Part shown: one piece after another, positions 5,725 through 17,400 of the stretch
How positions within the stretch are numbered: position 1 is the first letter of the stretch
Layout: every line of letters starts with the position of its first letter
Source: Gelidibacter sediminis
GTDB lineage: Bacteria > Bacteroidota > Bacteroidia > Flavobacteriales > Flavobacteriaceae
Length of the DNA: 64,000 nt
Assembly: GCF_004364975.1 (NCBI RefSeq)
Contig: NZ_SOBW01000008.1
Location: forward strand, 124,001 to 188,000
Direction of reading: 5' to 3'
The notes under the pieces: model-generated
What the model was told of the DNA's origin: nothing
The model's input: the letters and a program-made list of their open reading frames with translations, nothing else
The model's database searches: none
Translations under genes and position numbers: made by a program

Positions 5725-5767
5725 TGACCAATATCATATGCTGCCCGTAATGATTTAAGTAATTTAG
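5725..5767 (+). promoter_or_regulatory. Fnr-like box and -7 element upstream of a USP gene
   Basis: TGACCAATATCA (5725-5736) is an Fnr/Crp-type dyad. The -7-like element TAATTTAG (5760-5767, one mismatch to TAnnTTTG) lies with its centre exactly 33 bp further on, which puts the box near -41, the usual activator position. The same geometry recurs at three other promoters in this region. Confidence 0.6.
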
Positions 5768-5784
5768 GGTATAATATATGAATC

Positions 5785-6621
5785 ATGAAAAATATTCTGC
5801 TATTAACTGATTTTTCCGATCCATCTAAAAACGCCATTTCTTATGCGCTAAAACTCTTTGAAAAAGAAAAGTGTACCTTTCATCTGCTCTATGTTCAAGA
5901 TTCCAAATCTTACATTACTGATGATGTAATAGTTCAGGCATCGTCGAGTTTGTATGAATCGCTTGTCAACAAAAATCGATTAAAGCTAATTGATTATGTA
6001 GCTAATTTAGAATCAGAATTTCAAAGTGATAATTTTAGTTTTAAGGTGTCCGTGGACTATGATTTCTTAATAACAGCGGTAAAGCAGCTTGTTAAAACGA
6101 AAAACATAACACTCATAGTTATGGGCACAAACGGCGCTACTGGAGCAAATGAAGTTGTTTTTGGTAGCAATACCATAAATGTAATCAGGAAGGTGATGTG
6201 TACCACCTTGGTTATACCTCAAAAATATGTCTACCAACAACCTCCAAAAGCAATGCTCTTGGCGTTAGACCGTTCAGATCAATTAAAGGGCACCTACATT
6301 AAAACTTTAAAAAAATTCATCGTTGCTCACCAACTTGCATTACATGTGATCAGATTAGATTCTGAAATGGGTCATAAAGACCTTAAGGTGGCGGACATTC
6401 AGGAGCTCGATTTACTTGTGAAAGACACTAATTACCACTATTACCTGATTGAACATGTCCCGATGGTATATGCTGTAAGCACTTATTTGCAAACAAATTC
6501 AATAGATATTGTAGGTCTTGTTGCACAACAGGAATCCTTTTTAGAGCGCCTATTTGTAGGTTCAGCAACCACTGAAATTACTAAGCATGCTCAATTTCCA
6601 ATATTGGTCTTCCACCCTTAA
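5785..6621 (+). CDS. Universal stress protein, tandem domains (USP 1)
   Basis: This 278-residue protein is two UspA domains in tandem. Domain 1 (about 1-145) starts MKNILLLTDFSD with the nucleotide-contacting Asp9. It carries the ATP-binding pattern G-x2-G-x9-G-S (VMGTNGATG...FGSNT, residues 112-130). Domain 2 (about 150-278) keeps the fold but has lost the glycine motif, so it probably does not bind ATP. USPs are cytoplasmic proteins made under starvation, hypoxia or other stress; the exact activity is unknown. This copy alone is on the plus strand, pointing at the convergent USP/nuclease operon. Its promoter has an Fnr-like box, so it is probably controlled by the Crp/Fnr-type response regulator encoded at 13906-14955. 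Confidence 0.93.
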   Translation: MKNILLLTDFSDPSKNAISYALKLFEKEKCTFHLLYVQDSKSYITDDVIVQASSSLYESLVNKNRLKLIDYVANLESEFQSDNFSFKVSVDYDFLITAVKQLVKTKNITLIVMGTNGATGANEVVFGSNTINVIRKVMCTTLVIPQKYVYQQPPKAMLLALDRSDQLKGTYIKTLKKFIVAHQLALHVIRLDSEMGHKDLKVADIQELDLLVKDTNYHYYLIEHVPMVYAVSTYLQTNSIDIVGLVAQQESFLERLFVGSATTEITKHAQFPILVFHP

Positions 6622-6675
6622 TATTTCCAATTTTTAAGGTGCTCGCAATGGTGTTGGCAATAAATTGGAGGTCAA

Positions 6676-7089
6676 TTATAGAATTAATCCTTTAGTGTAT
6701 TCCATCATTTCAGATTTTAATTGGCCCGCTTGGCTTAAAAACTTAACAACTTCTAATTCTGTATCATGGTATTGTTTAAGAAAATAATTGTCGCATGACA
6801 ACTCGTCGCATTCTACTTTAAGTTGAACTTCCTTAAATTGTTTTTCCACCTCCGTTGTTAAAGTTAACATAACCTTTGTATGTTGATCAATTTGAGTTTT
6901 AAACTTTTCAATCGTTTCGAATAAATTAGGTGTTTTTGAATCGAATATATGAGAACTTAGGAGGTGTTTAAAAAACTCTAAATCCTGCATTAAAAGTTCC
7001 AAACGCGACTTGTAAAATGCCAGATTAAATTGGAGTTCCTCAGTGTTTTTATCGGAGTAGGCATATTTATGGATTTCATAGGTGTTCAT
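6676..7089 (-). CDS. Coiled-coil protein of unknown function
   Basis: I do not recognise a family for this 137-residue protein. It is acidic, cytoplasmic (no signal or membrane segment) and almost wholly helical. Stretches such as LQFNLAFYKSRLELLMQDLEFFKHLL and FETIEKFKTQIDQHTKVMLTLTTEVEKQFKE have heptad spacing suggesting a coiled coil. Two cysteines lie at VECDELSCD. It is the last gene of the USP/nuclease operon, 12 bp behind the RNase-like gene. Co-expression with stress proteins and nucleases is the only functional clue; a scaffold or partner role is a guess. Confidence 0.75.
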   Translation of the reverse strand: MNTYEIHKYAYSDKNTEELQFNLAFYKSRLELLMQDLEFFKHLLSSHIFDSKTPNLFETIEKFKTQIDQHTKVMLTLTTEVEKQFKEVQLKVECDELSCDNYFLKQYHDTELEVVKFLSQAGQLKSEMMEYTKGLIL

Positions 7090-7101
7090 GATTGTATTTT
7101 T

Positions 7102-8475
7102 TTAAACAGTTAAATTTACAACGTCAAAGAGCTTTGGTATGCTTACATTCCAATTAAAGGTGTCTGTTATCTTTACTCGTAAAGCATTTGTTGCAGACGG
7201 CTCTCCATGGATAAGATATACTTTTTCAGGAACATTTACAATAGCGCCCATCCAATTCAACAATTCTTTTTGATCAGCATGGGCTGATAAACTTTCAAGA
7301 TGTTTTATGGTCGCCTTAACAGAATAATATTTTCCTCCAAATTTAATTTCATGAGCACCGTCATATAACTGTCGGCCGCGAGTGCCTTCCGCTTGGTATC
7401 CAACCAATAAAACGGTGGTAGACGTGTCGTCAATAAGTTGCTGCAAATAGGTAAGGACCCTTCCACCCGTGACCATCCCGCTGCCGGCGATAATAATTTT
7501 AGAGCGCTTATCGTCAATTGTTTCCCAGGTCTCTTTATAAGATTCTATAATGTTGGTATGGTTGTACATATGATTAAATTCAGCGTCAGAAAGTTTATGC
7601 CATTTAGGAAAGCGTTTAAACACGTCCAATACATTATTACCCATTGGACTATCTACAAAAATTGGGATGTTGGGAATTTTGTTTTTCTGATTAAGGTTAT
7701 AAAGTATAAACATCAATACCTGAAGCCGCTCTACCGCGAAACTGGGAATAATCAGATTGCCTTTTTTCTCAATTGTTTCTAAGATGATATTGGTAAGCAA
7801 TTGTTCTACATCTTCATTAGGATGGTTTTTATTGCCATAAGTGCTTTCTATAAAAAGATAATCTGCGCTTGAAGGTCGTTTAGGTTGCTCTAGCAAAAAA
7901 TCATGGGGCCTCCCAATGTCACCAGAAAACACAAATCGCTTGGTATTGATATCCAATTCTATAAAGGTTGCCCCAAGAATATGTCCATTATATTGAAACC
8001 TATAAGCTATATGTTCAGACAATTCTATCCAGTGCGCTTCTTCTTTGGCATGAAACATAAGTAGAGTTTGCTCAACATCTTCAACGCTATAAAATGGTAG
8101 GGCAGGGTTGTGTTTAGTATAATTTTTTTCATTAGCTTTTCCGGCATCTTCTTCATGGATCTTTGCACTATCCCTTAAAATTATTTCCGCAATAGCCAAG
8201 GTTGGTCCCGTCCCAATAATTTTACCACTAAAGCCTTGTTTAACAAGTCTTGGCAGGTATCCCACATGATCTAAATGGCCGTGCGTAAGCAATACTAAAT
8301 CTATATTGGCTACAGATATTGGAAGGTCTACCCAATTGAGTTGGCGGAGTTCTTTCAAACCCTGAAACACCCCACAATCAATAAGAATATTTAATTCTGG
8401 GGTTTCAATAAAAAACTTCGAACCTGTAACAACATTAGAGGCGCCTAGAAAAGTGACTTTTACATTAGAAACCAT
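7102..8475 (-). CDS. Beta-CASP metallo-beta-lactamase RNase-like protein
   Basis: This 457-residue protein belongs to the YSH1/CPSF-like group (COG1236) of nucleic-acid-processing metallo-beta-lactamases. Visible motifs: the zinc motif THGHLDHVG near residues 63-71, a GHILGATFIELD strand, FSGDIGRP (metal Asp), a beta-CASP domain with SPMGNN and GSGMVTGGR, and the C-terminal RMMBL segment ESLSAHADQKELLNW and LIHGE. Relatives act as endo- or 5'-exoribonucleases, so mRNA turnover or processing is the likely role. It lies 6 bp after an ATP-cone nuclease and 12 bp before the coiled-coil gene, inside an operon of universal stress proteins. This suggests RNA decay under the same stress. Confidence 0.9.
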   Translation of the reverse strand: MVSNVKVTFLGASNVVTGSKFFIETPELNILIDCGVFQGLKELRQLNWVDLPISVANIDLVLLTHGHLDHVGYLPRLVKQGFSGKIIGTGPTLAIAEIILRDSAKIHEEDAGKANEKNYTKHNPALPFYSVEDVEQTLLMFHAKEEAHWIELSEHIAYRFQYNGHILGATFIELDINTKRFVFSGDIGRPHDFLLEQPKRPSSADYLFIESTYGNKNHPNEDVEQLLTNIILETIEKKGNLIIPSFAVERLQVLMFILYNLNQKNKIPNIPIFVDSPMGNNVLDVFKRFPKWHKLSDAEFNHMYNHTNIIESYKETWETIDDKRSKIIIAGSGMVTGGRVLTYLQQLIDDTSTTVLLVGYQAEGTRGRQLYDGAHEIKFGGKYYSVKATIKHLESLSAHADQKELLNWMGAIVNVPEKVYLIHGEPSATNALRVKITDTFNWNVSIPKLFDVVNLTV

Positions 8476-8481
8476 ATGTCT

Positions 8482-9330
8482 TCAAAGTTTACAGAGAAGT
8501 TTAATCTCTTTATTAATTTTAGTCTTTCGTACTTCAGATATCCCTAAATGATCCAAGAAGAAAACGTCATCTAACAAATCGCGATAAAGTACGAGATCTC
8601 GACTTAATAAAAATTGCTTTTCCCGATTGGTTAATTGTGTAGACACTGTTATAGGATAAAGCCCTAATCTATCAATCCGGTCTTTTAAACCATCATTGTT
8701 TGGATAATCCCAACTTAGGAGATATAGACCGATACATTTTCCATACTGCAAAGCATCTTCGGTAAACCTCGTATTGGTTACTACCCAGCCTATATCCAAT
8801 GTGGAATTTTGAGGCGTGGCGCTCCAATGCGTTTTAAGATCATGATAACGTGAAGCAATGTATAAAGGCACCTTTACGTTGCAATTCCTGCCTTCTTCAC
8901 TATGAAATTTGCATTCTATAAATGTTGTCGTATCATTTTTAATGGCTACAACATCTATTTCATGACGCACACAATGGCCTTTAAATATTTGACTGACATG
9001 GGTGTCATATCCTGAGTACTTTAAAATAGCCGCTACAAACCGTTCAAATGGATATCCTGTTGGCCCCAGTTCATATATTGCTTTTTTTAATTTGTATTTG
9101 GAGGCCAAATGACTGCCTTTTTTTTTAAGTAAGGCAAAAGCTCTGTTATATAGTTCTTTTGTGGAAATACCATCATATAACTCATATTTTACTTTAGTAA
9201 TAATTTCTTGTATGGTTTGGTCATCGGCACCTGATTTTGCAAGGGATGAACGCAAGTTGCGCAATGAAAATTTGACTTTTTCACCGGAAGTTTTAATAAT
9301 GTCAAAATTAGGTTCCATAGCAATTTTCAT
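8482..9330 (-). CDS. ATP-cone plus Mrr-like PD-(D/E)XK nuclease protein
   Basis: This 282-residue protein joins two domains. Residues about 5-95 look like an ATP-cone: IIKTSGEKVKFSLRNLRSSL, then KVKYELYDGISTKELYNRAFALLKK. ATP-cones are nucleotide-sensing modules best known from ribonucleotide reductase and NrdR. Residues about 95-200 look like an Mrr-type restriction-endonuclease fold: GYPFERFVAAIL, HEIDVVAIKN and FIECKFH give the expected E, D and ExK catalytic residues. The rest is unassigned. A nucleotide-gated DNase is a plausible reading but unproven. No methylase or specificity subunit is nearby, so this is not a classical restriction system. It sits between USP genes and the beta-CASP RNase in one operon. 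Confidence 0.82.
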   Translation of the reverse strand: MKIAMEPNFDIIKTSGEKVKFSLRNLRSSLAKSGADDQTIQEIITKVKYELYDGISTKELYNRAFALLKKKGSHLASKYKLKKAIYELGPTGYPFERFVAAILKYSGYDTHVSQIFKGHCVRHEIDVVAIKNDTTTFIECKFHSEEGRNCNVKVPLYIASRYHDLKTHWSATPQNSTLDIGWVVTNTRFTEDALQYGKCIGLYLLSWDYPNNDGLKDRIDRLGLYPITVSTQLTNREKQFLLSRDLVLYRDLLDDVFFLDHLGISEVRKTKINKEIKLLCKL

Positions 9331-9403
9331 TATGAATGGGTTTAAAACGCATGTTGTCAGGTGTATACTACATGCGGGTTTTGCATTTAGAGTATGATCA
9401 TCT

Positions 9404-10258
9404 CTAGTTTCTCAAATCATGCATAACCAATATTGGTACTCTAGAATCATTTGCAATCCCTTTGACCAGAGGCTGATTGATGATACTTGCAAAGAAGGAA
9501 TGTTTTCTATTAATGAAGGCAACCATATCACTTTCCCTACTTTCCACAAAACAATTTATGGCAGCTGGAATGGAAATGTTTCTTAAAAAATGGAATGAGT
9601 ATTGAACGCCATCAAAATAGTCTTCCAATTGATTTTGTTTTATCAGTTGTTTTTCGGTCAACTCAGCACCTTCCATGATGTGCAAAATTTTAATTGAAGC
9701 ATTACACCGTTTGGCAATGTCAGTTAGGTATTTTAGATTGCAACCTTTAAACTGTGTTTTGTAATTAGTAGGGAAGACAATTTCTTTTGGTAGGTTTGAT
9801 TTTGCCAACTTAGGGACCACTATCACTGGACAGTTTCTAACCTTCTCCATTACACTTAAGGCTGTACTGCCATAAATTTTACTTCCGGAGTTGGATTGGC
9901 CTCGCGTTCCCATAATAATAAGATCTATATCCTTTTCTTCCACGACAGACTTAATAGCATCCAGAGGATGGTTGCAAATTGAAATGGTTTGAAAACTGTG
10001 TTTGGGATTGCCTTTAGAGCCAAAAACCAATTCATTCATTACGTTTTCCAAACCGCTTATCGATTCAGCTTTTGAAGCTTCATAGAAACCATTGCCGGGC
10101 TCCATGTTCATGAGGTCTTCAATATTATTGGAATCAATAAAAAACACATTTAAAAGATAAAAAATACAAGGCTCATCTTTATATAGCTCTATGGCGTAGT
10201 TAAGGGCTCGTGTGGCATTAACTGAAAAGTCTGTCGGAATTAATAATCGTCGTTTCAT
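9404..10258 (-). CDS. Universal stress protein, tandem domains (USP 2)
   Basis: This 284-residue two-domain UspA protein starts MKRRLLIPTDFSVNATRAL. The first domain has the ATP motif IMGTRGQSN...YGSTA. The second domain (from about residue 155) lacks it. Within the motif the spacer reads SNSGSK rather than the TGA(K/N)E of other copies, so this is a distinct subgroup together with USP 5. It lies 54 bp after USP 3 and 73 bp before the ATP-cone nuclease gene, and no Fnr-like box is visible in either gap, so it is read from the upstream promoter at about 12906. Confidence 0.92.
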   Translation of the reverse strand: MKRRLLIPTDFSVNATRALNYAIELYKDEPCIFYLLNVFFIDSNNIEDLMNMEPGNGFYEASKAESISGLENVMNELVFGSKGNPKHSFQTISICNHPLDAIKSVVEEKDIDLIIMGTRGQSNSGSKIYGSTALSVMEKVRNCPVIVVPKLAKSNLPKEIVFPTNYKTQFKGCNLKYLTDIAKRCNASIKILHIMEGAELTEKQLIKQNQLEDYFDGVQYSFHFLRNISIPAAINCFVESRESDMVAFINRKHSFFASIINQPLVKGIANDSRVPILVMHDLRN

Positions 10259-10312
10259 GAGTGCTCTTGTTTTATAAAATAAAATTAAAGGAGGTGGTAG
10301 TTCATCACATTA

Positions 10313-11152
10313 TCAATTATTGGCTGGAATGATTAGAAATGGAATGATGGGGTGATAACCTATTTTTTTAATGATAGGTTCTTTGGTCATGTTTTCGATA
10401 ATACTGTGTCTATAGTTAAACATGGCTAACATGTCTATATTCATTTCTTTAATAAAATCATTAATGATTTCAGATTTTGTTGAGTAGGCTGGCATCCAAT
10501 GGAAGCTATGTTTGTTATCCTTCAAAAATTCCTTCAATTCATTTACGTTTTTTTGTTGGACATCGCTCAGCGTTTTTTCAACATTAATATGCACTACATT
10601 GAGATGGGCATCATGTAGATTGATGAGTGCGAGTAACTTATCTAGCACGGCTTTAACATAAGGACGGTTAAAATCTGTCGCAAATGCAATTTGTCTAGGC
10701 GCCACAAAAGCCATGTTGTCAGGCACAGCAAGTACAGGGCAGCTTTTAATATTTTGGATAGTCTTAACCGTATTGCTCCCAAAAAAGAATTTGTCTATAC
10801 CAGAAGCACCTTTTGTGCCCATAACCACAGTATCAATGCTATATTTTTCGATACTATGTTTAATGGCATATGACAATTCATCACTGCTCATTATGATCTC
10901 AAAAGAATGTGCTGTGTTGGTGTTTTGTTTTTCAATTTTGTTTTTCAACGCAACCAAGTCGCGTTGCGAGGCTTCTTTTAATGTGGCAATAAAGTGGCTA
11001 GTGATAAAGGTTCGGGAGTGAGCATTTGAAAAATAATATGAGTTGAGCAGGTAGAAGGTACATTCTTCACCAGCATAAAATTTTAAGGCATAGTTTAAAG
11101 CGCTCCATGCATTTTCTGAAAAATCAGTAGGTATTAAAATAGACTTTTTCAT
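10313..11152 (-). CDS. Universal stress protein, tandem domains (USP 3)
   Basis: A 279-residue tandem UspA protein beginning MKKSILIPTDFSENAWSAL. The first domain carries VMGTKGASG...FGSNT, consistent with ATP binding; the second is degenerate. Its start overlaps the stop of USP 4 by 4 bp, so the two are translationally coupled. It is probably a paralogue from local duplication, since the island has five minus-strand copies in a row. Cytoplasmic; biochemical function unknown. Confidence 0.92.
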   Translation of the reverse strand: MKKSILIPTDFSENAWSALNYALKFYAGEECTFYLLNSYYFSNAHSRTFITSHFIATLKEASQRDLVALKNKIEKQNTNTAHSFEIIMSSDELSYAIKHSIEKYSIDTVVMGTKGASGIDKFFFGSNTVKTIQNIKSCPVLAVPDNMAFVAPRQIAFATDFNRPYVKAVLDKLLALINLHDAHLNVVHINVEKTLSDVQQKNVNELKEFLKDNKHSFHWMPAYSTKSEIINDFIKEMNIDMLAMFNYRHSIIENMTKEPIIKKIGYHPIIPFLIIPANN

Positions 11153-12012
11153 GATGATATATTTTTAGAATTGATCTGTGAAGGGATGACTAAAAAGGGA
11201 GTTGTTAAATGGAATCCAATTTGGTTAACTGTCGAGTTGAACAATATATTTTCAAAAAATGATTTCTTGTTATTTATCATGACCAACATGTTTGCAGCAA
11301 TCTCATTTTGCAAATTGGTAATGCCTTGCATCACATTTTCATCTTGAGTTTCGTGCATTGCATAGTTTATATTAGATAATAGGTGTTGCAGCTTGGCTTT
11401 ATTACGTAATTGAAAATCAGATAATACAGACGTCAATACATGTAAAATATGGATTTTTGAAGCTTGTGAATTGATGATGTCAAATAGAATTTCGAGTTGC
11501 TTTTTGTGATAGGTTATGCCATAATCTGAAGGAAACAAAATTATATTAGGTTTCTTATAAATAAAACCTTCTGGTATGGCCAACACAGGACATTTTACGT
11601 TTTTAAAAACTTGGACAGTGTTGGAGCCAAAAAGGACTTCCTTTGCGCCAGTAGCTCCTTTAGTGCCCATCACAATTAGGTGTATGGCATGTAAATTCAA
11701 AAACTCTTTAATGCCGGATACCAAACCGTCAAATCTGGCCATCTGCTGAATATCGTGCTTAGGATTGTTGCCAAAGTCCTCAATGATACGGTTGCTGAGG
11801 GTATTAAGTTGTTGCTGTGCCGTGTTTCTAATAGAATCTTGCAAACCAAATTGCGCAGGATGACCTAGCACATATTCTACGTGATAAATTACAGGAGTAT
11901 AGGTGTTCAGTAGATAAAAAGTACACACTTCATCTGTAAACAAATGCATTGCATAGCGGATGGCGTTCCATGAGTTTTCAGAAAAATCCGTTGGCAAAAG
12001 TATATTTTTCAT
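11149..12012 (-). CDS. Universal stress protein, tandem domains (USP 4)
   Basis: A 287-residue tandem UspA protein starting MKNILLPTDFSENSWNAIRYAM. The intact ATP motif VMGTKGATGAKEVLFGSNT is in the first domain, almost the same wording as in USP 1 and USP 3. The C-terminal domain has a conserved FPSDYGITYHKKQLE strand-helix but no glycine motif. It lies 18 bp behind USP 5 and overlaps USP 3 by 4 bp, firmly inside one operon. Confidence 0.92.
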   Translation of the reverse strand: MKNILLPTDFSENSWNAIRYAMHLFTDEVCTFYLLNTYTPVIYHVEYVLGHPAQFGLQDSIRNTAQQQLNTLSNRIIEDFGNNPKHDIQQMARFDGLVSGIKEFLNLHAIHLIVMGTKGATGAKEVLFGSNTVQVFKNVKCPVLAIPEGFIYKKPNIILFPSDYGITYHKKQLEILFDIINSQASKIHILHVLTSVLSDFQLRNKAKLQHLLSNINYAMHETQDENVMQGITNLQNEIAANMLVMINNKKSFFENILFNSTVNQIGFHLTTPFLVIPSQINSKNISS

Positions 12013-12030
12013 AAGTGCTGATTTTATGTC

Positions 12031-12882
12031 TTACCCGTCTCTTTTAATATTTTGCATAGCCAAAAATGGCACATTAAGTTTTAAACTGAGTTGGTCAACT
12101 CTTGATGGATAGAGAAAAGATTCTAAAAATGATTCTCTAGTATTTACCATCACCAACATGTCTATAGGGTGTTCATTAACATACTGTTCTATAGAAGCCA
12201 CCACATCTTTGCTGTCTATAGTCTTAAAATTGATTTCATTTTTACACAGTGCTTCTTTCATGAATAATTGATTGTCTTCTTGTCTTAGTGACAACTTTTT
12301 TATTTTTGAAATATAAACCACGTCTATAATTGAGCGGTACGGTGCTACCATATCGCACAATAATTTGAGTTCTCTTCTTTTATATGGAATAAGATAATTA
12401 GTAGGGAATAAAATATGTTTAGGTTGTGTGTAGCGCTGTTTTTCAGGAATTGCCAACACAGGGCATTGCACGTATTTTAACACTTGCAAGGTCTGGCTCC
12501 CAAATGTTATCTTTCTGTCATTGCTCTTTCCTCGTGTACCCATCACTATAAGATCTATATTCTTTTCGTCAACAATTTTATCCGCTTCATCGATGAGAAT
12601 ATTATGGGATGAAATAGTATGATACTTGTGTCGTGGGTTTGGGGAAAATGTGTTGATTTCTTTTAGGATTCGGTCCAATTCAGCGGCCGATCTATCAGCG
12701 ACCTCCTTGGTAACTTTACCTATGTTTTCTCGAGTAAGATTTGTGGTTTCTTTATAAATGGTATCTTCGTAAGCATGCATGATGTAGAAGTCATACCTTT
12801 CGTATTTAAAAAGCTCGAGCGCATATCGCACCGCGTTCATGGCATTGTCTGAAAAATCTGTTGGGATTAAAATACTTCTCAT
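12031..12882 (-). CDS. Universal stress protein, first gene of the USP/nuclease operon (USP 5)
   Basis: A 283-residue tandem UspA protein starting MRSILIPTDFSDNAMNAVRYAL. The ATP motif reads VMGTRGKSNDRKITFGSQT. This is the promoter-proximal gene of a seven-gene minus-strand run: USP 5, USP 4, USP 3, USP 2, ATP-cone nuclease, beta-CASP RNase, coiled-coil protein. The largest internal gap is 73 bp. An Fnr-like box and a -7 element precede it, so regulation of this one promoter could set the level of the entire set. Confidence 0.92.
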   Translation of the reverse strand: MRSILIPTDFSDNAMNAVRYALELFKYERYDFYIMHAYEDTIYKETTNLTRENIGKVTKEVADRSAAELDRILKEINTFSPNPRHKYHTISSHNILIDEADKIVDEKNIDLIVMGTRGKSNDRKITFGSQTLQVLKYVQCPVLAIPEKQRYTQPKHILFPTNYLIPYKRRELKLLCDMVAPYRSIIDVVYISKIKKLSLRQEDNQLFMKEALCKNEINFKTIDSKDVVASIEQYVNEHPIDMLVMVNTRESFLESFLYPSRVDQLSLKLNVPFLAMQNIKRDG

Positions 12883-12902
12883 GATTCTCTACGTTTATCA
12901 AC

Positions 12903-12945
12903 TAAAGATAACGTTCATAGAGGATAAAAACTATGATAAATATCA
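12903..12945 (-). promoter_or_regulatory. Fnr-like box and -7 element of the USP/nuclease operon
   Basis: TGATAAATATCA (12934-12945) has perfect TGAT/ATCA half-sites with a 4-bp spacer. On the minus strand a TATCTTTA -7-like element (12903-12910) is centred exactly 33 bp downstream, giving a box position near -41 typical of activation by a Crp/Fnr-family protein. Confidence 0.68.
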
Positions 12946-12984
12946 GATCCTTAGGGCGCTATGGTAGAGAGTAGAAACGCGATC

Positions 12985-13824
12985 TTAATGAAGAACTAAA
13001 AACGGTACATCAGTATGGTAGCTTATTTTTTCAATCTTAGAATGAAATAGGATATGTTGAAAATAATTAAGGTTTTTTGCCACCATGGTAATCATATCAA
13101 TATTACGGCTTTCAACAAAGCATTGTACCGCATTTTCAACTTTATTGTTTGTTAAGAAGTGAAAACTATGGTCAATATGGCTAAAGTAATCTTCTAGGAG
13201 TTCCTTATTTTTTATTTGATCAGTATTCAGAACCGTGTCTTTTTTACTAATATTTAATATTCTGATAGCGGCAGCGTGCTTTTCAACAACATTCACTACG
13301 GGTTGAAGAATGTCAATATTGTAAAGCATTGAGAAATCAGTAGGGAAGGCTACTTCTTTAAGGGTTGTATAGGTGGCGTTTTCAGGTACTACCAAAGCAT
13401 TACAATGCACTTTGGTAATCACATCACCAGTATTGCTGCCTACAATCAATTTTTTAAGCCCAGTGGCACCTTTGGTTCCCATAACAATCATGTGTATGTT
13501 TTTCTCAGCCACTTGTTGCCTCATGGAATCGACTAGGAAATTGTGATCTATTATGGTGTAAAACTTATGCTTTTTATTTGTAGAGAGCGTTGTTGAAATA
13601 TGATTTGATAAGTCCTTTAATCTAGCTTTTGCAGTTTGGGTATAGACATCACTAACCTGCGTTGCTGAAATCATATATGGGGAATCGCTAATACCGAAGC
13701 CACTTGATTTGACAACATGCAGTAAATAAAAATTACATGCCGATTCTTCAAACATATGCAATGCGTAGTTAATCGCATTCAATGCGTTCTCTGAAAAATC
13801 TGTTGGCAATAATATATTTTTCAT
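12985..13824 (-). CDS. Universal stress protein, tandem domains (USP 6)
   Basis: A 279-residue tandem UspA protein starting MKNILLPTDFSENALNAINYAL. The ATP motif VMGTKGATGLKKLIVGSNT is complete in domain 1; domain 2 lacks it. It sits between the response-regulator gene (81 bp upstream) and the USP/nuclease operon (102 bp downstream). Each of those gaps holds its own Fnr-like box and -7 element, so it appears to be a separate transcription unit next to its presumed regulator. Confidence 0.92.
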   Translation of the reverse strand: MKNILLPTDFSENALNAINYALHMFEESACNFYLLHVVKSSGFGISDSPYMISATQVSDVYTQTAKARLKDLSNHISTTLSTNKKHKFYTIIDHNFLVDSMRQQVAEKNIHMIVMGTKGATGLKKLIVGSNTGDVITKVHCNALVVPENATYTTLKEVAFPTDFSMLYNIDILQPVVNVVEKHAAAIRILNISKKDTVLNTDQIKNKELLEDYFSHIDHSFHFLTNNKVENAVQCFVESRNIDMITMVAKNLNYFQHILFHSKIEKISYHTDVPFLVLH

Positions 13825-13842
13825 TTGTTAATTCTTCGTCAA

Positions 13843-13885
13843 CAAATGTAAAGGGCCTTATCACCTTAAAAAATGATAAAAGTCA
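13843..13885 (-). promoter_or_regulatory. Fnr-like box and -7 element of USP 6
   Basis: TGATAAAAGTCA (13874-13885) and, centred exactly 33 bp downstream on the minus strand, a perfect TACATTTG -7 element (13843-13850). This is the best -7 match of the four promoters with this arrangement. Confidence 0.7.
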
Positions 13886-13905
13886 TGTTTGATTCTGATG
13901 TATTC

Positions 13906-14955
13906 CTAGCTTATGCTTTTTAATTTTTCAATATCAATAATCTTGATATTTCTGCCTTCTATCTCTAAAATGCCTTCCTTTTTAAAGCTAGACATAGTTC
14001 TTATTAGGGTTTCTGTGGCAATACCAGCTACACTTGCGAGGTCATTTCTAGAAATTCGGATGGCCTCATCGGACTTTTTGTTCAATTTCTCTGCAAACTT
14101 TAATATGGTGGTGGCTGTTTTTTTATGGACAGAACTGTATGCCATTTGTAAGAGTTGATCTTTGGTACCTTTAATATCTTCAGTGAGCAAATCAATCAAT
14201 TCCATGGTTACCTGATGGTTGGTGTTGAGGATGCCTTTAAGTGTGTTTTTGGAAACCCCAACCAATTCCGTTTTCTGTATGGCAGTTGCTGTTTCTTGGT
14301 AAGAGGTGTTTTCAGAAAATGAGGTGTAGCCAAACAAATCATCCTCTTTGTGCAGTGCGGTAGTCAATTCTTTGCCTTGCTCATCTAAAATATGACATTT
14401 AACCAACCCTTTTATAATTAAATAAATAGTGTTGGCATGCTGGCCCTCTTCATAAATATGATCACCTTCTGCTACATGTATGGTGTCTCCATTGTCATCA
14501 AAAAAGTTTTTCAGATCGTTTAAGGTGCGTAATTCTGACCTATTTTCAGGAACTGTTTCACCTTTTTCATGAATTTCCTTTAAAATTGACACTTTGGCCA
14601 ACCTACTTTCTATGGCGCTAATGAGTTCTTCTTCGCTAAAAGGTTTGGTAATATAATCATCAGCACCCAGGTTCATTCCTTTTCTAACATCATTGCGTTC
14701 TGTTTTTGCTGATAAATAAATGAATGGAATGTGTTTTGTACTATTCTCTTTGGCCAGTGCTTCTAAAACCTCATAACCATCCATTTCTGGCATCATAATA
14801 TCACAAACAATAAGGTCAGGGAGATGCTCTTTGGCAAATTGCATCCCAATTTTTCCATTAGGAGCGGTTATCACTTCAAAATCTGAGAGTTCTAACAACT
14901 CAGCAGTGTTTTCTCTTAAAACGGTATCATCTTCTATTAAAAGTAATCTTTTCAT
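13906..14955 (-). CDS. Response regulator fused to a Crp/Fnr-type regulator
   Basis: This 349-residue protein has a receiver domain (residues 1-120, phospho-acceptor Asp52 in VCDIMMPEMDG, Lys104 in TKPFS), a cyclic-nucleotide-binding-type beta-roll (about 155-240) and a Crp-type winged helix (about 275-345). The beta-roll lacks the Arg-Ser pair that holds cAMP in Crp, so cAMP is unlikely to be the signal, and there is no Fe-S cysteine cluster as in Fnr. The recognition helix ATETLIRTMSSFKKEG keeps the Glu315 and Arg319 that read TGA half-sites in Crp/Fnr proteins. Phosphorylation by the adjacent kinase is the likely switch. Its start overlaps the kinase stop (TAATG). Four nearby TGA-N6-TCA boxes are its probable targets. 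Confidence 0.9.
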   Translation of the reverse strand: MKRLLLIEDDTVLRENTAELLELSDFEVITAPNGKIGMQFAKEHLPDLIVCDIMMPEMDGYEVLEALAKENSTKHIPFIYLSAKTERNDVRKGMNLGADDYITKPFSEEELISAIESRLAKVSILKEIHEKGETVPENRSELRTLNDLKNFFDDNGDTIHVAEGDHIYEEGQHANTIYLIIKGLVKCHILDEQGKELTTALHKEDDLFGYTSFSENTSYQETATAIQKTELVGVSKNTLKGILNTNHQVTMELIDLLTEDIKGTKDQLLQMAYSSVHKKTATTILKFAEKLNKKSDEAIRISRNDLASVAGIATETLIRTMSSFKKEGILEIEGRNIKIIDIEKLKSIS

Positions 14956-16199
14956 TAGTGTGCTTTATTTGGTAATGTAATTGTAAAAGTACTCCCTTCT
15001 TTTTCTCTACTTGAAAACTCTATGGTGCCTCCTAAATGTTCTAAATGGCTTTTTACAATGTTAAGTCCAATGCCTGTACCCTGAATGTTTAACACGTTTT
15101 CAGCTCTAAAGTAACGATTGAAAATATTTTTTTGCTCAATCTCAGGGATGCCTATACCTTGGTCTTTGATAGTGAATACAGTTTGCATGTCATCTTGTAA
15201 AATTTTGATGTCAATATTTGTGTGTTCTGGCGAATATTTTATTGCATTATGAACCACATTGGATAAAGAGAGTTCTAAGATTTTTTCATCCTGATGTAAT
15301 GACATGTCGTCTATATTTTCTGGATAATTGATCTTTTGTCCATCTTTTAGAAGCATGTTGGCATTGTAAATAACCTCATTTAAAACCTTACTCAATTTAA
15401 AGGTTTTAAAAGTATAATTCACCTTTCCGGTCTCCAGTCGTTCTACTGAAAGGAAATCGTTAAGAATATTGTTGAGATAATGTACCTTATTGATAATTGT
15501 GTTGAGGTGCTTGTCGCGTTTTTCTTGTTGCTCTGCCAATTTGTACTTGCCTAATAAAACTGTGGATGTCAAAATGCCGCTTAATGGAGTTTTAAATTCG
15601 TGAGACACCAATGATAAAAACTTGGTTTTCAGTTCATTGAGTTCTATTTCCTTTTGAAGGGCAATTTGGGTCTCGGTCTCCGCCTTAATCCGTCGTTTAT
15701 TTTCAGTGTCCAGTTCAGAATTTACAACTTTAAGCTCCTCTACAATTTGGTGCAAGGTTTTAGTTCGTTCCTCAACTTTTTTCTCAAGTCTATTGTTAAG
15801 CTCTAAAACTTCCTGCTCTTGCTTTTTTCGATCGCTTATATCGATAATAAGCGACATCACATAAGTTTTGTCATAAATTTCAAAAGGGTTTAATCCAGCT
15901 TCGACAGGAAAAATAGAGCCATCCTTCCTTCTGCCATATATATCACGGCCTTTACCCATTTGTCTGCGTTCCTGTTTTTCCATGAACTCATTAAAATGGC
16001 CACCATGGCTGGCATGGTACCTTTGCGGAATTAAGGTATTGAGAGGCTGGCCTACAAGTTCATCTCTTGTATAGCCAAAAATAGTTTCAGCGGAAGTATT
16101 GATCTCTACAATGGTTTGGTTTTCATCTACTATGATGACGCCTTCGGATACCGCTCCTAATAGGGTTTTAAATACTTTTCTCTGATCTTGTTCAAACAT
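14955..16199 (-). CDS. PAS-domain sensor histidine kinase
   Basis: A 414-residue soluble kinase without membrane segments. Residues about 5-125 form a PAS domain, 123-190 a coiled coil, and the HisKA phospho-acceptor is His200 (SLVSHEFKTPLSG). The ATPase domain shows N318 (NVVHNAIKYSPEH), DQGIGIP (346-352) and GTGIGL (374-379). The PAS domain resembles that of FixL oxygen sensors in wording (LIPQRYHASHGGHF, GRRKDGSIFPVE). His65 and Arg85 fall where FixL has the haem ligand and its key Arg, but other FixL haem-pocket residues seem absent, so haem binding is uncertain. It is one base overlapped with the fused response regulator and is its obvious partner. A cytoplasmic redox or oxygen-linked signal is likely. 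Confidence 0.9.
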   Translation of the reverse strand: MFEQDQRKVFKTLLGAVSEGVIIVDENQTIVEINTSAETIFGYTRDELVGQPLNTLIPQRYHASHGGHFNEFMEKQERRQMGKGRDIYGRRKDGSIFPVEAGLNPFEIYDKTYVMSLIIDISDRKKQEQEVLELNNRLEKKVEERTKTLHQIVEELKVVNSELDTENKRRIKAETETQIALQKEIELNELKTKFLSLVSHEFKTPLSGILTSTVLLGKYKLAEQQEKRDKHLNTIINKVHYLNNILNDFLSVERLETGKVNYTFKTFKLSKVLNEVIYNANMLLKDGQKINYPENIDDMSLHQDEKILELSLSNVVHNAIKYSPEHTNIDIKILQDDMQTVFTIKDQGIGIPEIEQKNIFNRYFRAENVLNIQGTGIGLNIVKSHLEHLGGTIEFSSREKEGSTFTITLPNKAH

Positions 16200-16438
16200 A
16201 AATGGGAGCCAAAAAATACAATTGATAAAAATACAAAAATTAGGGATTATAAAAAGGATAATCCATAATATAAGACGAATATAAATAGTAGTAAATGTGC
16301 CACAATCAACATAAGTAAAGATGGTTAATTATGTAAAAGACTATTTTTATAAAAAGAAAATTTTTAGTTGGGAATAACTTACATTTAATGGTATGATGCG
16401 TGTATATAAATGATATAATTGTGTTTTTAGTGCTACCC
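16200..16438. other. Intergenic region between the kinase gene and the plus-strand lipoprotein gene
   Basis: An AT-rich divergent region. I see the expected room for a kinase promoter, but no clear -33/-7 pair on the minus strand and no hidden gene. The lipoprotein promoter follows at 16439-16481. Confidence 0.5.
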
Positions 16439-16481
16439 TGATAGATGTCATGGTAAAATGTCATTATTGTAATTATTTTTA
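16439..16481 (+). promoter_or_regulatory. Fnr-like box and -7 element of the RsiV-like lipoprotein gene
   Basis: TGATAGATGTCA (16439-16450) is followed by TATTTTTA (16474-16481), centred exactly 33 bp away. This is the same spacing as at the three USP promoters and marks this divergent gene as a likely regulon member. Confidence 0.58.
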
Positions 16482-16506: not shown

Positions 16507-17400
16507 ATGAGATATAGCTATATAGTGCTTCTAATATTTTTATTATTAAATTGTAAAAATGATAATCCTGAGCGCGGTTTTAATCAGATTAAGGATCAAG
16601 AAGAAATTCAATTATCAATTGATAGTGTGCCAATGCCCAAGGGGGCGATGGAATTGAATGAAAAGTCTGTCTCTATCGAGATGAAGCAAAAAGATCTTAT
16701 TCAAAAGAAAGACCAAAGATTAGCTTATGAGCCATTGTTAATTGAAAAAACATATATTGAAGTACGTAAAGATTATACCATCAATTTTAAATACCCGCTA
16801 TTGAACGAATCGCTCAAACCTACCCATGCTAATTTTAATCAATTTATTACCAATCATTACGTAAACATCAATAAAGCTATAGCCGATATTGACGCGAGTA
16901 AACTACTGTGTGATAGTATTGCATCCTTGAAATTTAGAGAAGACCGGTTTATAGATTATAAAATCTATATTGTTAATGACCAGCTGGTCAGTGTCCTTTT
17001 TTATAAAGAAAATTTTCAATCAGGCGCAATGCATCCGAGCTATTCCTTTGATTGTTTTAACTTTGATTTGAATAAAGGTCTTTTTATGAGCTTTGAAGAT
17101 TTTTTCAATCAAGGTTCTGAGGAAGAGGTTTTACACATCTTAAATCAAAAAATAATCAGTAATATTCAAAATGCGAACTTATATTACGACTGTTGGGAGG
17201 TTTCTTCATCTGACTTTTTTGCGAGTAAAAATAATTTTGTGGTCAATGATGATGTGGTCGAGTTTTATTTTGATGATTGTGTGATGTGTCCATCCTATAC
17301 GGGCTCTTATTCTATCGCGTTACCCCTTGAAGAGTTGTTGCCAGTATTGAAAAAATCCAATGCTGTACCATTAAATCTCAACGCCAAAGGTGGCAAATAG
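16507..17400 (+). CDS. Lipoprotein with RsiV/DUF3298-type domain
   Basis: A 297-residue protein with a lipoprotein signal (MRYSYIVLLIFLLLNC, Cys16) and a DUF4163/DUF3298-like extracytoplasmic domain. The pattern FQSGAMHPSYSFDCFNFDLNKGLFMSFEDFF is typical of DUF3298, and the conserved end of the domain is FYFDDCVMCPSYTGSYSIALPLEEL. The best-known relative, RsiV, binds lysozyme; other members have unknown roles in the cell envelope. The open frame reaches 16450, but ATG 16507 starts the signal peptide. It is divergent from the kinase gene and has an Fnr-like box upstream, so it may be an envelope part of the same stress response. Confidence 0.8.
   Translation: MRYSYIVLLIFLLLNCKNDNPERGFNQIKDQEEIQLSIDSVPMPKGAMELNEKSVSIEMKQKDLIQKKDQRLAYEPLLIEKTYIEVRKDYTINFKYPLLNESLKPTHANFNQFITNHYVNINKAIADIDASKLLCDSIASLKFREDRFIDYKIYIVNDQLVSVLFYKENFQSGAMHPSYSFDCFNFDLNKGLFMSFEDFFNQGSEEEVLHILNQKIISNIQNANLYYDCWEVSSSDFFASKNNFVVNDDVVEFYFDDCVMCPSYTGSYSIALPLEELLPVLKKSNAVPLNLNAKGGK

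Follow-up and report, generated by a model that had tools for sequence, protein, structure and literature searches.

The analyzed window, a stretch of 64 kb (64,000 nucleotides) from Gelidibacter sediminis (contig NZ_SOBW01000008.1, positions 124,001 to 188,000), contains a group of universal stress protein (USP) genes together with the genes of a histidine kinase and a response regulator (RR), the latter combining a receiver domain (REC) with a Crp/Fnr-type half. Four FNR-type boxes of the form TGA-N6-TCA precede genes of this region, each being followed by a -7 promoter element resembling TAnnTTT[AG]. The features are given below in window coordinates, with "gap" denoting the number of nucleotides between the end of the box and the start of the element.

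5725..5736, plus strand: FNR-type box TGACCAATATCA, upstream of USP 1
5760..5767, plus strand: -7 element TAATTTAG, gap 23 from the box, single mismatch to TAnnTTT[AG]
5785..6621, plus strand: USP 1 (Pfam Usp, 3.2e-24)
12031..12882, minus strand: USP 5, the first gene after the 12934 box (Pfam Usp, 4.8e-24)
12903..12910, minus strand: -7 element TATCTTTA, gap 23 from the box
12934..12945, minus strand: FNR-type box TGATATTTATCA, upstream of the USP/nuclease gene run
12985..13824, minus strand: USP 6 (Pfam Usp, 2.9e-26)
13843..13850, minus strand: -7 element TACATTTG, gap 23 from the box
13874..13885, minus strand: FNR-type box TGACTTTTATCA, between the regulator gene and USP 6
13906..14955, minus strand: RR with REC, cNMP-binding fold and HTH_Crp (Pfam), the proposed binder
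14955..16199, minus strand: kinase with PAS, HisKA and HATPase domains, the PAS being FixL-like (H65, R85; Pfam and PDB match)
16439..16450, plus strand: FNR-type box TGATAGATGTCA, upstream of the DUF3298-like lipoprotein
16474..16481, plus strand: -7 element TATTTTTA, gap 23 from the box
16507..17400, plus strand: DUF3298-like lipoprotein (DUF3298, 9.2e-4, below the curated cut-off)

All four boxes were found where the first-pass annotation had located them. The claimed constant distance of 33 bp between the centres of box and element was reproduced in 4/4 sites, corresponding to 23 nucleotides from box end to element start. On the gene strand, three of the four elements match TAnnTTT[AG], the one mismatch that had been reported belonging to the 5725 site. 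Between positions 6676 and 13824, the minus strand encodes five USPs, a beta-CASP metallo-hydrolase, and an Mrr-like/ATP-cone protein in succession. Concerning the lipoprotein, the 16439 box does lie upstream of its start at 16507, a start chosen by reading, while an upstream ATG overlapping the box was dropped; of its earlier designation as RsiV-like, the DUF3298 match below the curated cut-off is the sole family evidence.

As had been expected for 64 kb, the box alone is frequent by chance. TGA-N6-TCA occurs 32 times in the window compared with 21.9 expected occurrences and is only weakly above chance, because this number was reached in 3 of 100 shuffles. Combination with TAnnTTT[AG] at gap 23 left three occurrences compared with about 0.1 expected per spacing, and loosening the element to TAnnTT[TA][AG], a form picked after the 5725 site had been seen, gave four compared with 0.16. 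Within the 3.56-Mb genome containing the window (G000), box-N23-TAnnTTTR matched 15 times, its reversed control three times. Since the spacing was first noticed on the four window sites, 80 loci picked for encoding the regulator (the best 80 of 548, a few genomes contributing two) served as a clean spacing test. There, gap 23 yielded 308 matches with a looser box, while the other gaps from 0 to 59 yielded 4.6 on average (sd 2.7). Strict sites numbered 302 compared with zero in the reversed control, with at least one site in each of the 80 loci. This confirms a box-to-(-7) spacing far beyond chance, identifying the constant spacing as the significant feature, as had been argued. The scan that could have refuted it, by finding the spacing equally common elsewhere, was run in part, and neither the reversed controls nor the other gaps match gap 23. 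From the 80 loci, the box consensus [AC]TGAY-N4-RTCAT was obtained, directly followed by T in 96% of the cases.

In the excerpt considered of the sigma-A promoter map of Flavobacterium psychrophilum, the -7 box spans positions -12 to -5 (PMC9723704). Together with gap 23, this places the box centre at -41.5, in good agreement with the earlier estimate near -41 and with the operator position of a class II Crp/Fnr-dependent promoter; the value is taken from the F. psychrophilum map.

Extension of the analysis to relatives showed that, in the same-genus genome G013 and in Gelidibacter algens, the orthologues of USP1, USP5, and USP6 retain both box and -7 element in their upstream regions, with differing flanks; the USP1 orthologues of both carry the box with a TAnnTTTA element at the same position. 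A strict box just beyond the stop codon of the regulator gene was present in 76 of the 80 loci, a USP gene being next in 72. Conservation is lower at the lipoprotein site than at the USP sites: among 11 orthologues, five show a box at -55 to -64 and a sixth a loose match at -126, while none precedes the G. algens orthologue.

The RR of G000 is 88% identical to its counterpart in G013 and 85% to that of G. algens. D9, D10, D52, S82, and K104 of the receiver are present in 80/80 loci, thereby providing the acidic pocket, the phospho-accepting Asp, and the Lys of a receiver. The recognition helix reads ATETLIR, with E315, I318, and R319 invariant in 80/80 loci, extending the previous observation that Glu315 and Arg319 are kept. 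The Cys ligand set of a [4Fe-4S] FNR was not found in the window RR, its Crp half containing one Cys. In cAMP-binding proteins, Glu and Arg-Ser of the phosphate-binding cassette contact the nucleotide; in an alignment to solved Crp/Fnr chains these contact residues are missing from the RR, FGYTS and SYQET replacing FGELS and PRTSS. Phosphorylation is therefore the remaining expected control. A NarL/FixJ-type HTH output was likewise not found, the output consisting of the cNMP-binding fold and HTH_Crp_2. In a sample of 296 Bacteroidota genomes, the fused receiver-Crp/Fnr form was detected in 43 at E 1e-50 or better, and at an identity of at least 50% only within the Flavobacteriaceae.

A long reading frame ends just before the RR gene in 78 of the 80 loci, the other two having less than 200 bases of upstream sequence, and all 78 frames share 49-87% identity with the window kinase. 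Its PAS domain has FixL as best PDB match (E 5.5e-16), followed by DosP. The His and Arg positions of FixL, which we take to be haem-pocket residues, are kept in 77/78 and 72/78 kinases respectively, both being present in the window kinase. As a control, both residues occur in only one of the 11 PAS domains of G000, namely that of the window kinase. This pattern suggests a haem-binding PAS domain. In four loci (L117, L118, L120, L124), the kinase gene itself is preceded by a box that lies divergent from a second one; boxes in front of the kinase gene in Tenacibaculum possibly reflect autoregulation.

The first-pass annotation regarded the Crp/Fnr-type RR as the obvious binder of the boxes. However, among the five HTH_Crp matches in G000, the Glu/Arg pair of the recognition helix is retained not only in the RR but also in the 242-aa protein L019 (C2:575842-576426, helix VETVIR), so a comparative test was needed. 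The L019 gene is divergent from a globin-like gene (a truncated globin by reading), and its product is a possible NO or haem sensor, but probably not the main binder of the boxes. A third kind of Crp/Fnr protein of about 225 aa often occurs in relatives: 20 of 20 examined have CxxC plus a late Cys as well as the Glu/Arg pair, 16 of 20 the full set of four Cys, and 13 of 20 the helix ATESAIR. Judging by this Cys pattern, we take it to be FNR; it is missing from G000 and present in G013. Of 120 Flavobacteriaceae genomes, those with a match over the full length at 40% identity or more were assigned to the RR class (54 genomes; G001, G025, and G119 reach only 41-44%, and these three all also have FNR). 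The identity threshold was 47% for the FNR class (68 genomes; G020 at 43%, G043 at 41%, and all matches at or below 37% were scored as absent) and 39% for the L019 class (26 genomes).

The proposed scan of the own and related genomes revealed 1660 strict sites compared with 62 reversed controls, at least one site being present in 110/120 genomes. Genomes with both RR and FNR (26) have a median of 25 sites, those with RR and without FNR (28) a median of 14 (range 6-37), and those with FNR and without RR (42) a median of 11.5 (minimum 2). In contrast, the median is one site in the 24 genomes with neither regulator, with one outlier (G048); the six genomes of this class that reach 2.6 Mb in size and 99% completeness hold 0-2 sites. 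RR-containing genomes without FNR differ from the neither class at p = 1.1e-8, p-values being optimistic here since the genomes are related. Even without FNR and the L019 class, 16 RR genomes show a median of 14 sites (range 6-37). For six of these, a count by eye placed 49 of 107 sites no more than 50 kb from the RR gene, where about 3% would be expected, and a site just past the RR 3' end was found in 6/6. Because sites are plentiful with RR or FNR and have a median of one without both, the binder in G000 is most likely the REC-Crp RR. Class II placement, a genuine regulon, and the RR as binder are thus each supported on comparative grounds. A specificity of the box for the RR did not hold: RR-only and FNR-only genomes share the same box consensus (30 sites each), and other genomes appear to use this box with the separate Cys-rich FNR.

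Considering gene content, the 15 matches in G000 precede genes for a CBS protein, a radical-SAM protein, a copper-oxidase-type protein with cytochrome c, a separate cytochrome c, the cbb3 oxidase (COX1) operon, formate-THF ligase, a TolC-like protein (OEP), two window USPs, the window lipoprotein, another USP elsewhere in the genome, a small protein, and a 129-aa frame without family. Two sites (L002, L004) lie within reading frames and are probably chance matches. The names hemN, nirK, and ccoS are our interpretation, Pfam giving Radical_SAM, Cu-oxidase_3 plus Cytochrom_C, and COX1. The former assignment as a stress regulon proved too narrow, since most named G000 members outside the window are genes of microaerobic respiration, nitrite reduction, and haem synthesis; a stress-only reading was rejected on the basis of these targets. 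At L013 and L015 in G000, the box separates its target from a Crp-like frame (for L013 on the same strand, by reading only; for L015 divergent), looking as if these Crp-like frames were part of the network. Gap 21 gave four matches compared with zero in the control in G000, one sharing the hemN box toward sodC; it was rejected as an alternative spacing, having no excess in the 80 loci. The corresponding box (L008, C2:335279-335350) is situated between a hemN-type gene (gap 23) and a Cu/Zn superoxide dismutase gene (gap 21).

Near the regulator, the next frame after the 302 strict sites encodes a USP in 149 cases, is unlabelled in 121, absent in 21, and otherwise labelled in 11. Further box-preceded frames encode S30AE ribosome-hibernation-type, DnaJ-type, thioredoxin, HSP20, pyridoxamine-oxidase-like, and WG-repeat proteins, a ribonucleotide reductase, and cbb3 oxidase (16). 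After the USPs, the second commonest target group is a protein of about 136-141 aa without Pfam match (37 frames, e.g., L079:7932-8354). This gene mix resembles the FNR/Anr and DosR regulons. Among 30 of 107 RR-only and 30 of 112 FNR-only sites (first five per genome), labelled frames followed in 9/30 compared with 5/30, unlabelled frames in 18 compared with 19, and no frame in three compared with six, a sample labelled from a reference panel and supporting no comparison of the classes.

We consider it likely that the boxes are class II activator sites of a low-oxygen regulon run by the PAS-haem kinase and the REC-Crp RR. According to this model, the kinase (14955-16199) would sense falling oxygen and phosphorylate Asp52 of the RR (13906-14955), whose Crp/Fnr half would then bind [AC]TGAY-N4-RTCAT and recruit sigma-A RNA polymerase to the TAnnTTT[AG] promoter 23 nucleotides downstream, thereby turning on cbb3 oxidase, haem synthesis, nitrite reduction, the CBS protein, and USPs. 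The RR would be the main protein on these boxes in G000, while many relatives also carry the Cys-rich FNR, which has a near-identical recognition helix and would use the same box. The kinase-RR pair gives the impression of a FixL-FixJ-FixK cascade condensed into just two proteins. In the excerpted report on F. psychrophilum, cbb3 and haem-synthesis genes are raised under oxygen limitation (PMC9723704). More generally, we are inclined to assume that the Flavobacteriaceae possess one oxygen regulon with two interchangeable inputs, Fe-S FNR and a FixL-like haem kinase with REC-Crp/Fnr, of which lineages keep either or both, so that the two-protein system can replace FNR outright, as in G000.

Several observations weigh against this model. 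A strict box beside the regulator gene is missing from four of the 80 loci. Six of the 11 lipoprotein orthologues likewise lack a box where one would be expected, and of the five that carry it, two (Tenacibaculum) are near-identical. Arg is missing in six of the 78 kinases and His in one, and conserved His and Arg do not prove haem. On the genome level, besides the relatedness mentioned above, 29 sites occur in G048 (82% completeness, 6% contamination), where neither regulator was detected, many genomes without both regulators are small, some FNR-only genomes hold as few as 2-3 sites, and the Glu/Arg paralogue L019 could share sites in G000.

Alternatively, RR and boxes may act as described while the kinase senses NO, CO, or redox state. 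The PAS His fixes neither ligand nor response, and a nitrite-reductase-like gene belongs to the regulon; still, the closest solved relatives of the PAS domain are the oxygen sensors FixL and DosP, His and Arg are kept, and the gene set is of the low-oxygen type, rendering this rather unlikely. That L019 is the true binder, sensing NO or haem, could be suspected from its recognition-helix Glu and Arg and its globin-like neighbour. It is quite improbable considering that the 16 RR genomes without FNR and L019 retain their sites, that the two genomes with the L019 class alone have just 2 and 5, and that this class is found in 26 genomes compared with 110 carrying sites; as sole explanation it was rejected by this presence table of 120 genomes.

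We regard it as very improbable that the boxes are leftovers of a lost FNR, now weakly bound or unbound in G000. FNR is missing there and present in G013, and FNR-only genomes carry the same box, but G000 has 14 strict sites compared with 15 in G013, the boxes of USP1, USP5, and USP6 are kept while their flanks diverge, and the 28 RR genomes without FNR keep their sites. A chance alignment of common AT-rich words, for which the near-chance frequency of the box alone in the window would speak, has a practically negligible probability, being refuted by the gap-23 count in the 80 loci and opposed by the excess over reversed controls in the 120 genomes.

A literature search in titles and abstract openings, with subscription journals thinly covered, found no account of the RR or the box in Bacteroidota, no operator reported to mediate oxygen control in the Flavobacteriaceae, and no fused receiver-Crp/Fnr form. 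For this family, the analysis now offers an operator, a promoter position, a set of genes, and a regulator that can be put to the test. Genomes having only one input or the other further provide a natural setting in which to compare two oxygen-type inputs to a single set of boxes.

Class II activators of the FNR/Anr/FixK type bind TGA-N6-TCA at about -41.5 through Glu and Arg of the recognition helix and target cbb3, hemN, and denitrification genes. Operator type and position, the two helix residues, and these kinds of target genes are shared with the system described here. Unlike FNR, the RR lacks the Cys ligand set, and the box flanks are ATGAY/RTCAT instead of the FNR consensus TTGAT/ATCAA. 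In the mycobacterial DosRST system, a haem kinase and a response regulator control several USPs, HSP20, CBS, and reductase genes. A haem-type kinase and response regulator over several USPs, HSP20, and CBS would thus be a common theme, whereas DosR is NarL-type with another operator and the output here is Crp/Fnr-type. Low-oxygen-induced USPs are also known from the lxa locus of Burkholderia cenocepacia, with uspA beside the Crp/Fnr gene anr2 (PMC9104464); this species belongs to a different phylum, and the excerpt of that report mentions no fused receiver. In Rhizobium leguminosarum, as far as the excerpted source describes it, FixL-FxkR-FixK and FnrN act on one anaerobox (PMC7888657), so that, similar to our proposal, one operator type serves both an FNR-type protein and a pathway with a FixL-type kinase, driving cbb3 oxidase. 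There, however, the kinase works via a separate regulator raising fixK transcription (PMC7888657), whereas here receiver and Crp/Fnr are united in one protein, within Bacteroidota having their own -7 promoter element.

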